64,000 bases of DNA from NCBI RefSeq assembly GCF_000341105.1, contig NZ_ANBB01000015.1:62001-126000 (forward strand). The letters run 5' to 3'. The notes below the pieces were generated by a model that did not search any database, had not been told where the DNA came from, and saw nothing but the letters and a program-made list of their open reading frames with translations. A program made the position numbers and the translations under genes. The DNA comes from Nocardiopsis potens DSM 45234. Lineage in GTDB: Bacteria > Actinomycetota > Actinomycetes > Streptosporangiales > Streptosporangiaceae. The number at the start of each line of letters is the position of its first letter. Position 1 is the stretch's first letter. Shown in pieces: positions 4,861 through 50,720 of this stretch.

Positions 4861-4923
4861 CGATGATCTTGACGTTGCGGGGTGTCAGAGCGCTCTGACA
4901 CCCCCGCAACGTCAAGATCATCG
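4861..4923. repeat. 63-bp near-perfect palindrome (family member 1)
   Basis: The left arm 4861-4891 and right arm 4892-4923 are reverse complements with a single bulged G and no loop. The outer arm is CGATGATCTTGACGTTGCGG; its complement CCGCAACGTCAAGATCATCG closes the element. It sits between two convergent genes (stops at 4822 and 4964). Members with the same outer arm and nearly the same length lie at 33575, 47826 and 50657. Confidence 0.85.
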
Positions 4924-21899: not shown

Positions 21900-21965
21900 C
21901 GATGATCCCGACGCTGCGGCCCTGCTAGAGCGGGTGGTTTCCAGCGCCCGCCGCAACACCGCACA
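21900..21965. repeat. decayed copy of the 63-64-bp palindrome
   Basis: CGATGATCCCGACGCTGCGG at 21900-21919 matches the left arm of the palindromes at 4861 and 33575. The expected right arm is reduced to CCGCAAC (about 21951-21957) and then diverges. It lies at the edge of composite element A, upstream of the imine-reductase-like gene. Confidence 0.55.
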
Positions 21966-21967
21966 CC

Positions 21968-22016
21968 AGAGGAGAGGAGGGGGAGAGGGAGGGGAGGGAG
22001 GGGAGGGAGGGGAAGG
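21968..22016 (+). repeat. 49-nt uninterrupted purine tract
   Basis: All 49 bases are A or G, with several GGGGAGGGAG-like units. The G-runs could form a G-quadruplex or triplex-type structure. It marks the left boundary of composite element A and has no counterpart at copy B. Confidence 0.75.
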
Positions 22017-22041
22017 CAGGGGGGCGGCCGGTCGGTCCGGC

Positions 22042-22410
22042 GCGGCGCCCCACGGAGCGAAGGTCAAGACGGGCGGCGAGGGCGGGAGGGGGACCGGCCG
22101 GTCGGTCGGGTGCGGCGCCTCACGGGGTGCAGCTTCAAGCAGGCGGCGACGGCAGCGGTAGGGCCGGGGCGAAGGCGGTCGCCCGGGTGCGGCGCCTCAC
22201 GGGGTGCAGCTTCAAGCGGGCGGCGACGGCAGCGGTAGGGGCGGGGTCGGGCGCCTCACCCGAGCGCGGCACCCCGCAGAATGAAGGTTCAAGCGGGCGG
22301 CGAGGGCGGGAGGGGGACCGGCCGGTCGGTCCGGTGCGGCGGGTCGCGGGGTGCAGGTTCAAGCAGGCGGCGACGGCGAAGGTAGGGGCGGGGTCGGGCG
22401 CCTCGCCCGG
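22042..22410 (+). repeat. composite element A, left hairpin array (5 units)
   Basis: Five tandem units start at 22042, 22112, 22189, 22266 and 22336 (periods 70, 77, 77, 70, 75). Each begins GCGGC and contains a GTTCAAGC-type core followed by GGCGGCGA. The 70-nt type carries the hairpin GGACCG-GCCGGT-CGGTCC; the 77-nt type carries CGGGCG-CCT-CGCCCG or a variant. Frames run open through it only because of base composition. The array points toward the 294-bp core. Confidence 0.85.
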
Positions 22411-22517
22411 GCGGGGCGCCGCGTTCACCGGCCAGGCCCGGCGCATGCTCCCGCCGGGGGTGGCCTTATCCCCTATGCCGGGTTCGCGGCGGGGAACAAG
22501 CGGGCGCGGGGGGCGGC

Positions 22518-22811
22518 CTGCGCACCGCGAGAGCACCCCGATTACATCTACCAGCGAGTAGTAAGCCCCCCAGCCCCCACCACCCCCTCCCCGATCACCC
22601 AGAGTGGCCAAAGCGGGCCCTCCCGGCAGGGCAAAAGCGACATCCCGCCCCCGCCCCTGCCCTTCCCGGGTTCCGGCCCCCTGCCTTGCGGCCTTGCGGG
22701 CCGCTCGACCCCCTGATCAACGGCCCAACCGGGGCGATTCGGGCCCTCAGAGGGCTGATCCGGCCCAGGGTGCGCGCCCAGGAATCACCGAGGTGCTCTC
22801 GCGGTGCGCAG
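22518..22811. repeat. composite element A, 294-bp core with terminal inverted repeats
   Basis: The ends are perfect 20-bp inverted repeats: CTGCGCACCGCGAGAGCACC at 22518-22537 and its complement at 22792-22811. Pairing extends outward with few mismatches. The interior contains ATTACATCTACCAGCGAGTA, which is also present in copy B, and GGCAGGGCAAAAGCGACATC. A core of exactly the same length lies inverted at 45827-46120. Homology between the copies continues outside the core on both sides (for example TTATCCC...TATGCC near 22467 and TTCGCCCAGGTCAGGGAGG near 22842). No transposase is encoded. Confidence 0.88.
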
Positions 22812-22970
22812 GGCGCCCCACCCCACCATCACCCTACGTATTCGCCCAGGTCAGGGAGGAGGAGCGGTTTCACGGGCGGCCGGCCACGCCGCCGGGGCGA
22901 CGCGGGAACGGCGAACCCGCCGCCCCGGCCCGCCCCGGCTCACTCCGACCGGCCCCACCCGCTCTGCCGC

Positions 22971-23189
22971 ACCCGACCGACCGGCCGGTGCCCCTGCCTG
23001 CCTTCGCCGCCGGCTTGAACCTCCGCCCTGTGGGGTGCCGCGCCGGACCGACCGGCCGGTCCTCGCTGCCGCCGTCGCTGCCTGCTTGAGCCCCCGCCCT
23101 GTGGGGTGCCGCGCTCGGGCGACCACCCCCGCTCCGCCCCTGCCGCTGCCGTCGCCGCCCGCCTGAGCCTTCGCTCTGCGGGGTGCCGC
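22971..23189 (-). repeat. composite element A, right hairpin array (3 inverted units)
   Basis: Three units of the same family as the left array lie in the opposite orientation, ending with GCCGC at 23041, 23112 and 23189 (periods 71 and 77). Motifs appear as the complement GCTTGAAC or GCCTGAGC. The array therefore also faces the core. Its outer end lies about 50 nt before the start of the AfsR-like gene. Confidence 0.82.
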
Positions 23190-23242
23190 ACTCGACCGGC
23201 CGGGCGGCGACCGGAGGATCCGGGGCGGGCTACCTTTGGCGG

Positions 23243-33574: not shown

Positions 33575-33638
33575 CGATGATCTCGACGCTCCGGCCCCGT
33601 CGGCGCACCGGGGCGGGGCCGCAACGTCGAGATCATCG
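33575..33638. repeat. 64-bp palindrome (family member 2)
   Basis: Arms begin CGATGATCTCGACG and end CGTCGAGATCATCG. Compared with the other members, one base pair has changed on both sides (T to C on the left, A to G on the right), so pairing is kept. It lies between convergent genes with stops at 33548 and 33656. Confidence 0.82.
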
Positions 33639-40468: not shown

Positions 40469-44728
<4,260 letters not shown>

Positions 44729-45440: not shown

Positions 45441-45459
45441 TCGGGCGCTCCGGCCCGAC

Positions 45460-45677
45460 GCGGCGCCCCACGGGGTGGAGGTTCAAGTGAGCGGCGAAGG
45501 CGGCGGCGGGGACCGGCTGGTCGGTTCGGTGCGGCGTCTCACGGGGCGGGGGTTCAGACAGGCGGCGACGGCGCCGGTAGGGGCGGGGCGGGGGTGGTCG
45601 CCCGGGTGTCGGGCCCCACGGGGTCGGGGTTCAGGCGGGCGGCGAAGACGGGAGGGGGACCGGCTGGTCGGTCGGGT
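45460..45677 (+). repeat. composite element B, left hairpin array (3 units)
   Basis: Units start at 45460, 45531 and 45608 (periods 71, 77, 70) and belong to the same family as the arrays in copy A. The 70-nt type has the hairpin GGACCG-GCTGGT-CGGTTC, where a GU wobble replaces a pair, so pairing potential is kept. This side corresponds to the three-unit right array of copy A. Confidence 0.82.
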
Positions 45678-45826: not shown

Positions 45827-46120
45827 CTGCGCACCGCGAGAGCACCCCGGTGATTCCCGAGCGCGCATCCCGGCCCGGATCGGCCCCCGGAAGCCCCGAA
45901 TCGCCTTGATCGGGGCGGTGGCAAGGGGTTCGTGCCGCCGGGAAGGCCGGGGTGCAGGGGGCCGGAACCCGGGGAGGGCAGGGGCGGGGGCGGGATGTCG
46001 CTTTTGCCCTGCCGGGAGGGCCCGCCTTGGCCACTCCGGGTAACCGGAGAGGGGGCAATGGGGGCTTCGGGGCTTACTACTCGCTGGTAGATGTAATCGG
46101 GGTGCTGTGGAGGTGTGCAG
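45827..46120. repeat. composite element B, 294-bp core, inverted relative to copy A
   Basis: The left end CTGCGCACCGCGAGAGCACC (45827-45846) is identical to the end of copy A. The right end GGTGCTGTGGAGGTGTGCAG (46101-46120) is a degraded complement (16 of 20 match). The length is exactly that of copy A. The shared island TTACTACTCGCTGGTAGATG lies at 46074-46093. The flanks (for example CCTCCCTGACCTGGGCGAA near 45779 and GGCATATAGGGATAAG near 46158) also match copy A in inverted order. No gene with convincing codon bias is present. Confidence 0.88.
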
Positions 46121-46207: not shown

Positions 46208-46640
46208 CCCTTCGCCGGGGCGCCGCCCCGCTCCCGCCGTCGCCGCCTGCCTGAACCCCCGCCCCGTGAGGCGCCGCGCCCGGGTGAGGTGCTCGCCCCG
46301 CCCCTACCCTCGCCGCCTGCCTGAACCTGCACTCCGCGAGGCGCCGCGCCCGACCGACCAGCCGGTCCCCCTCCCGTCGTCGCTGCCCGCCTGAACCTGT
46401 ACCCCGTGGGGTGTCGCGCCTGGCTGGGGCGCCTGGCCCCGCCCCTTCCTTCGCCGTCGCCGCCCGTTTGGACCTTCGCTCTGCGGGGTGCCGCACCGGA
46501 CCGACCAGCCGGTCCCCTCCCGTCGTCGCTGCCCGCCTGAACCTGTACCCCGTGGGGTGTCGCGCCTGGCTGGGGTGCCTGGCCCCGCCCCTTCCTTCGC
46601 CGTCGCCGCCCGTTTGGACCTTCGCTCCGCGGGATGCCGC
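46208..46640 (-). repeat. composite element B, right hairpin array (6 inverted units)
   Basis: Units end at 46277, 46347, 46417, 46494, 46563 and 46640 (periods 70, 70, 77, 69, 77). The last two 146-nt doublets (46348-46494 and 46495-46640) are almost identical, a sign of recent duplication. The array faces the core and corresponds to the five-unit side of copy A. From 46641 to 46921 the DNA is GC-rich intergenic sequence with TATTCT near 46876 as a possible -10 box for the next gene. Confidence 0.83.
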
Positions 46641-46921
46641 GCCCGACTGGGACGCCCGGCCCCGCCGGCCGTTCGGTGGTGGGGAAGGGGCGGCCGGGCG
46701 GTGGTGCCCGGAAAGGGGGTCGGTGTCCGGGATCGGCCAGGCCGGTCTCCCGGTGCGGTCGGCCGCCGCCGGGATGGTCCCGGTGACCTGCGGTGCCGCC
46801 CGCAGGGGTCGCCGGGGGCCGGAACAGCTTCTCCGGCCTGCGCGCGGCCCCGCCGGGGAGCGCTGCCCTCGGTGATATTCTCGCGGCGCTCTGCAACGGC
46901 TACGGACAACGGAAATCCCCC

Positions 46922-47825: not shown

Positions 47826-47889
47826 CGATGATCTTGACGGTGCGGGCCCTGTCCGAGGGTGCGGCCAGGGGCGCGACGTCAAGATCATG
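47826..47889. repeat. 64-bp palindrome (family member 3)
   Basis: The left arm starts CGATGATCTTGACGGTGCGG and the right arm ends CGACGTCAAGATCATGG. It is the most degraded of the four full-length members but keeps the length and the outer arm. It lies between convergent genes with stops at 47773 and 47933. Confidence 0.75.
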
Positions 47890-47932
47890 GGAGGGAGAGG
47901 GGAGAGGGAGTGGGCCGCTGGGTGCCGCCGGC

Positions 47933-50656: not shown

Positions 50657-50720
50657 CGATGATCTTGACGTTGCGGGGGCATCGGAGCGTTCTGACACCC
50701 CCGCAACGTCAAGATCATCG
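50657..50720. repeat. 64-bp palindrome (family member 4)
   Basis: The outer arms are identical to the element at 4861: CGATGATCTTGACGTTGCGG and its complement. The centre differs by substitutions that mostly leave GU pairs (TCGGAGCG opposite TTCTGA). It lies between convergent genes with stops at 50628 and 50749. Confidence 0.85.

Follow-up and report, generated by a model that had tools for sequence, protein, structure and literature searches.

A dispersed non-coding repeat of mirror-image arrays around a core in Nocardiopsis potens, with signs of sequence exchange among its copies

The 6.91-Mb draft genome of Nocardiopsis potens DSM 45234 (G000) carries a non-coding dispersed repeat, apparently not described before, in which a core lies between two arrays that mirror each other. 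Two copies (A and B) stand in the window analyzed here, a stretch of 64,000 nucleotides inside contig C15. For one protein encoded in the window the nearest named record is from Streptomonospora sp. PA3 (76% amino-acid identity), followed by Microbispora, Acrocarpospora, Sphaerisporangium and Nonomuraea, which fits a host in the Streptosporangiales. Exchange of sequence among the copies is well supported by how their variants are distributed, and the reading we favor, to which we give an even chance, is that of a foldback-like non-autonomous element in which recombination through the mirror-image arrays carries the core cassette from one site to another. More than 100 dispersed non-coding copies would then behave much like a recombining population while their flanks stay put, offering a natural assay of the frequency, tract length and divergence tolerance of ectopic recombination in a high-GC actinomycete. 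A search of full-text literature, in which subscription journals and preprints are mostly absent, returned no description of such an element.

The first-pass annotation of copy A had placed a core at 22518-22811, bounded by a perfect 20-bp inverted repeat and set between a left array of five units and a right array of three, every unit facing the core. All of this was re-verified, as was the second copy, whose core is 85% identical to that of copy A, and gene calls bear out the intergenic placement of the element (Table 1). Across the genome these dimensions hold in part. Among 115 aligned cores, 110 of them complete, the 20-bp repeat is perfect in 26 of the complete copies, whereas the other 84 have one to seven mismatches; a length of 292-296 bp is found in 102 of the 110, but seven measure 282-283 bp and one 273 bp. 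The 294-bp core is likewise a real landmark but not the unit of conservation, as similarity extends over about 460 bp (22462-22921). Because conservation crosses both arms of the inverted repeat, the core is an inner landmark of the element and not its boundary. The dyad at 22548-22561, which reads TACC[A/G]GCGAGTAG in the consensus of both species that carry the element, is among its most conserved words and resembles a regulator operator; it and the other conserved words, like the arrays, may bind proteins.

Table 1. Positions of the features of copies A and B in the 64,000-nucleotide window
Feature	Position	Strand	Description
Copy A, left outer shell, type s1	21900-21985	+	CGATGATCCCGACGCTGCGG (terminal-repeat-like), then s1 sequence
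Copy A, left array	22033-22396	+	Five core-facing units, start-to-start 69-78 bp
Copy A, conserved central block	22462-22921	+	About 460 bp, kept across copies in two species
Inner inverted repeat, left arm	22518-22540	+	Two forms among copies; outer ~10 bp kept in both species
Highly conserved word	22548-22561	+	CTACCAGCGAGTAG; imperfect dyad; candidate protein site
Inner inverted repeat, right arm	22789-22811	-	Commonest form in 76/110 copies
Second conserved word	22827-22854	+	CATCACCCTACGTATTCGCCCAGGTCAG; outside inner repeat
Copy A, right array	22988-23205	-	Three core-facing units
Copy B, genomic-left array	45451-45658	+	Three core-facing units
Copy B, core	45827-46120	-	294 bp
Copy B, genomic-right array	46224-46656	-	Six core-facing units

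The inward orientation of the units is without exception in N. potens, where all 429 left-hand and all 376 right-hand units of 81 copies face the core (805/805). In the one congener that also carries the element (G004) the same is true of all 164 units assigned to a core, a further 49 hits in those loci having no core assignment. The first sample from G004 was partly selected by motif, but 18 copies picked by their units alone are free of that bias, and among the matches listed a full core lies between inward arrays at all 18 of these sites. Two N. potens sites picked in this way also have a core, one of them truncated. The composite is thus built as a foldback element is, its middle segment enclosed by long inverted repeats that consist of tandem sub-repeats, as seen in 805/805 N. 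potens units and 18/18 G004 sites. When 84 control loci (0.90 Mb) were scanned by HMM, a single hit resulted, with an E value of 0.81. Unit spacing is bimodal, at 70-71 and 76-77 bp, and in N. potens the two alternate (S-L 171, L-S 163, S-S 68, L-L 31). A helical spacing of the arrays was considered, the N. potens mean being 73.5 bp, but spacing in G004 is mostly 76-77 bp and 77 bp does not correspond to an integral number of turns, so we make no such claim.

The element can reach beyond its arrays, since copy A has an outer shell with terminal-repeat-like sequence on its left; no shell of this kind was found at its right end. Shells are of two types, each beginning CGATGATCTTGACGYTGCGG, and among the 81 N. 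potens copies HMM searches detected at least one in 34 and both in 15, with an outward-facing hit in two; the remaining 47 have none and terminate in their arrays. Of the 81 copies, 24 have inward-facing sequence resembling GATGATCTTGACGTTGCGG on one side or both, and in 10 of these it is on both. That the shells are a separate host element which the composite entered is disfavored, as all seven shell hits distant from a core adjoin at least one array unit; four of the seven lie at contig ends, where no core could show. Among the sites checked, the sole array lacking a core is at L252 (G000:C9:74550-76742), where positions 1855-2080 hold facing s2 and s1 shells that enclose just one partial unit; it is perhaps an internally deleted element.

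Copies extend far beyond the window. A 27-bp core word (up to three mismatches) is found at 123 places in the N. potens genome (60 + 63) and an 18-bp core word (up to two mismatches) at 126 (62 + 64), the reversed-pattern controls for both words giving none in the same genome. An array word marks 780 units in N. potens, of which 647 lie within the loci retrieved at the time of the count, and 353 in G004; there are none in the other four congeners (G001, G002, G003 and G005). From these unit counts we would put the totals at roughly 140 copies in N. potens and 60 in G004. Within the family, 2 of 341 genomes contain the core word, and both belong to this genus; the motif search behind this count is insensitive to diverged copies and missed most of those in G004. 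A DNA search of 60 genomes added to the two carriers five genomes with matches of 22-36 bp only. No match was found in plasmids or, by exact 21-mer, in viral contigs, and an exact 22-mer scan of named genomes, which may exclude the N. potens record or near ones, returned none. A match to a catalogued family or a lack of copies elsewhere would have told against the first-pass annotation; neither was found, the search for a family having covered Rfam, plasmids and viral contigs. The N. potens copies have a mean identity of 84%; one (L324, G000:C25:1800-5000) shares just about 70% identity with the rest and has apparently escaped homogenization. On multi-copy contigs, 10 of 88 listed copies lie within 600 bp of a contig end, and in contigs such as C14, C18, C27, C46-C48, C71, C79, C98 and C99 a core stands no more than a few hundred bp from the terminus; composites are thus places where the draft assembly is prone to break.

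Within N. potens, variants in the core are linked over very short distances. For 51 sites with a minor allele of at least 0.2 in the 110 complete copies, mean r2 falls from 0.215 at 1-3 bp to 0.034 at 8-14 bp, 0.026 at 15-29 bp and, at spacings above 30 bp, 0.011-0.014, the shuffled null being 0.0096. All four gametes occur for every pair of sites at least 8 bp apart. Long shared runs exceed those under permuted order (15 pairs vs 1, 3 and 4). Exchange here falls short of being entirely free: pairwise identities have 3.0 times the variance expected for independent sites (110 copies), and the distant r2 of 0.0123 is slightly above the null. A star-like history of independent mutation is disfavored by this short-range linkage and excess of shared runs, by 24 near-balanced transversions among the 55 sites with a minor allele of at least 0.25 in 81 copies, and by the orthologue comparison given below. 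In G004, r2 forms a plateau of about 0.056 at all distances above 8 bp; this congener keeps subfamily structure, and near-free exchange is thus a result for N. potens only. Identity within the closest N. potens pairs is 95-98%, a figure that varies with the stretch chosen, so recent large transfers are not seen in that genome, nor was any recombination intermediate or strain-level event observed directly. G004 holds three pairs of near-identical composites at different sites, which should help to map recent events. For two of these three closest pairs, alignment places the ends of the shared tract inside the arrays (L019/L020, 98% over 915 bp; L309/L310, 96% over 1128 bp), while in the third (L315/L316, 96% over 1299 bp) it spans the whole L315 composite, as a transposed copy would.

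Comparison of 45 G004 composite loci with 118 N. potens loci gave 22 matches, from which we dropped one in a neighboring gap and one (L298/L313) that matched on the wrong side. At the 20 accepted sites, presumably inherited by both species, both flanks are orthologous in 14 and one flank in six, several of the latter being sites where the contig or locus ends. Aligned flank segments average 91.9% identity (segments below 78% not counted), yet the cores have kept no memory of their location. Identity between cores at the same site is 68.9%, against 68.6% to N. potens copies at large, with a mean percentile of 0.58 (KS p = 0.31; 18 scored pairs, that is, 20 submitted minus two without a full N. 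potens core, L298/L313 still being counted). No same-site pair of the 18 exceeds the 82.6% identity among N. potens copies at different sites, and none is the best match. The 13 scored pairs with two orthologous flanks behave alike (67.4 vs 67.6%, percentile 0.52). Core orientation is also mixed, being the same at 12 and flipped at 8 of 20 scored sites, and 8 and 6 at the 14 two-flank sites; the 20-site figures, and those for array units, again include L298/L313. The array units, outermost included, show no memory of their site, and the edges of the composites differ by tens of bp. The conserved words are common to the two species, at an overall identity of about 65%.

Occupancy of sites also differs between the species. 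One 126-kb stretch has four composite sites in N. potens and two in G004, with one shared; two of the N. potens sites lack units in G004, and one G004 site lacks them in N. potens. The copy B site in G004 holds other DNA, with a 64-bp palindrome in place of the composite. Such gain and loss implies mobility at some time, and the original spread of the element was probably by transposition. No target-site duplication was found in three empty-site comparisons, where poor conservation of the intergenic junctions prevents the ends from being located.

We suggest that these copies form one exchanging pool. Each would act as double-stranded DNA and consists of an optional shell, about five inward units of 70/77 bp, the ~460-bp core, a mirror-image array and a second optional shell. 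Ectopic recombination, whether gene conversion or double exchange, would carry the core and part of the arrays to other sites, with the arrays as the likely place of pairing, and because the arrays mirror each other a copied core could land in either orientation. The mirror build would thereby give a simple account of how orientation is randomized. Continued exchange would keep copies within a species alike while wiping out the history of each locus. We favor recombination through the arrays because it would explain the loss of linkage, the lost site memory and the random orientation together; its enzymology, like any role of the composite in the host, we infer from these sequence patterns.

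The main rival is recurrent transposition, in which a MITE mobilized by some transposase keeps returning to a few hundred intergenic gaps, with the result that the two species share sites and not copies. We regard this as possible though unlikely. Re-insertion would leave composites in either orientation, with edges that shift and without memory of the locus, as is seen at the shared sites, and it predicts outermost units without memory equally well. The gain and loss within the 126-kb stretch, the terminal-repeat-like shells, the shell-bounded L252, which looks like an internal deletion, and the L315/L316 tract that covers an entire composite are further points in its favor. On the other hand it requires only about 250-400 target gaps (118 x 45 / 20, or / 14; Lincoln-Petersen), no target duplication accompanies the three empty sites, and no autonomous partner appeared in a transposase screen confined to the Y1 family. 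Recurrent transposition covers the lost site memory and random orientation but not the loss of linkage, since clonal copying alone does not break linkage within about 15 bp. Of the readings offered at first pass, a non-autonomous mobile element comes nearest: gain and loss and the terminal-repeat-like ends in 24 of 81 copies support it, but a target-site duplication, a transposase and a fixed outer end were not found. A REP-type system was rejected because the Y1 transposase (PF01797) has no match in either carrier, N. potens or G004. Each of the non-carrier congeners has one PF01797 match; those of G003 and G005 are strong, whereas those of G001 and G002 are weak and short.

A second rival holds that the composite is a nucleoprotein station kept by the host at gene 3' ends, for example a site for gyrase, a condensin loader or a nucleoid protein, for which the core would provide a helically phased scaffold. 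This chromosome-organizing role, also raised at first pass, is a possible reading in view of the wide spacing, convergent gene ends and helical-turn-sized indels, but on balance we consider it rather unlikely. The composite favors convergent gene ends: the 115 N. potens copies lie in 51 convergent, 43 tandem, 5 divergent and 16 edge contexts, against 62 convergent, 217 tandem and 103 divergent among the other gaps of the same loci (chi-square p ~5e-14). REP elements have a similar preference for convergent or co-directional gaps and, in E. coli, are targets of gyrase, according to one study (PMC3733652). Neighboring copies are also over-spaced, with 3 of 59 gaps shorter than 10 kb where 16.0 were expected and 0 of 5000 simulations as low; this test rests on 29 contigs and 88 known copies, to which further copies could add short gaps, and placing 20 unseen copies at random would lift their number to about 12. 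Both the convergent bias and the spacing, moreover, would also follow from harmless 3' gaps and from loss of close repeats by recombination. The relative orientation of neighbors is random (30 of 53 the same), the 77-bp unit spacing of the congener is no whole number of turns, and the element is undetected in four congeners and hence not essential to the genus.

Further points in favor of a host site are that 110 of the 115 N. potens cores are complete, that the conserved words persist between diverged species, and that core indels come in helical sizes. Core indels of at least 3 bp measure 11, 11, 21 and +3 in N. potens and 10, 11 and 11 in the unit-picked G004 copies, to which the first G004 set adds one of 11, possibly the same event, and one of +12. 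All but one are near one or two helical turns, and these few events provide a lead that the core acts as duplex DNA in a protein complex. A host function would explain the intact cores, the spacing and the conserved words, and is compatible with either transposition or exchange, the latter as the homogenizing force. The fullest version seems to us quite unlikely: about 140 chromosomal stations, set wide apart, would each hold a helically phased, protein-bound module that is constantly exchanged across the genome via the mirror-image arrays, in either orientation, and that stays uniform by concerted evolution because it organizes the chromosome and is not parasitic; if the copies are host sites, an unknown layer of chromosome organization would be exposed.

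A family of structured RNA genes, as proposed at first pass, or an RNA-level 3' end element is highly improbable. Folded as a single sequence, the window core does outperform shuffles on either strand (z -4.9 and -5.9), the plus-strand consensus energy of -29.0 lies below five column shuffles (-14.3 to -23.4), and a preference for gene 3' ends would suit such a role. The alignment argues the other way: the inverted-repeat arms do not co-vary (2.618 mismatches within a copy vs 2.628 between copies), consensus structures have no more pairs than row shuffles (0.981 vs 0.981; 0.978 vs 0.978), the minus-strand consensus energy is inside the column-shuffle range, and mutual information across the aligned copies gives no support for RNA. 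Rfam returned no match at gathering or at E <= 1, and a tRNA search found one tRNA, located elsewhere. The arrays had been described as hairpins, a label we abandon because seven single units, folded as DNA, do no better than shuffles (z -0.57 to +1.38). The composite carries no gene, as the 110 complete cores have 29 distinct indels of 1-2 nt and none of 115 N. potens cores overlaps a gene call by more than 90 bp; in G004, 1 of 19 scored composites overlaps one.

Among known systems the composite is most like the eukaryotic foldback-type transposons Foldback and Galileo of Drosophila, which have long inverted repeats with internal tandem repeats, variable in number, around a middle domain. 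Sequence exchange among Galileo copies has been reported, and their long terminal inverted repeats (TIRs) have been proposed to attract recombination and conversion (PMC3573991). Unlike these elements, ours has a bacterial host, no transposase-bearing copy and no target duplication were found, and many copies lack a recognizable outer terminus. The nearest bacterial system that we found is the BrickBuilt MITE of Porphyromonas gingivalis, described (PMC4596501) as intergenic, with a tandem array inside leader and tail segments that have terminal repeats; in several copies the leader or the tail is missing, some sites recur in a sister species, and the TIRs match IS5-family elements. BrickBuilt has one array of 23-nt units in 19 copies, whereas the composite has two mirror arrays of 70/77-bp units, a conserved core and more than 100 copies. 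REP and BIME elements, as described in two papers (PMC3733652, PMC1525189), are high-copy intergenic repeats favoring convergent and co-directional gaps, and the composite shares their gene-end bias, copy number and placement; REPs, however, are short palindromes, whereas the composite unit forms no hairpin beyond shuffles and its carriers lack the Y1 transposase. Discussion of concerted evolution in bacteria has centered mostly on rRNA operons and a few genes.

Two other repeats occur in the window. A family of 63-65-bp palindromes (CGATGATCTTGACGTTGCGG...) has copies at 4861-4923, 33575-33638, 47826-47890 and 50657-50720, the first of which folds with a z of -12.9. In 16 copies examined the outer 20 bp are near constant and the inner part is variable but mostly self-complementary. 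The palindrome end word occurs 125 + 126 times in N. potens, 74 + 53 times in G004 and 2-3 times in each other congener, so that this family is abundant in the same two carriers as the composite. The palindrome at the copy B site of G004 (C1:5052006-5052069) stands alone a few bp after a response-regulator gene, and its arms resemble the outer shell ends of the composite. Finally, six in-frame direct repeats of 276 bp (40861-42540) lie inside a long gene at 40469-44728 and are presumably the HAMP-like repeats of a sensor kinase.
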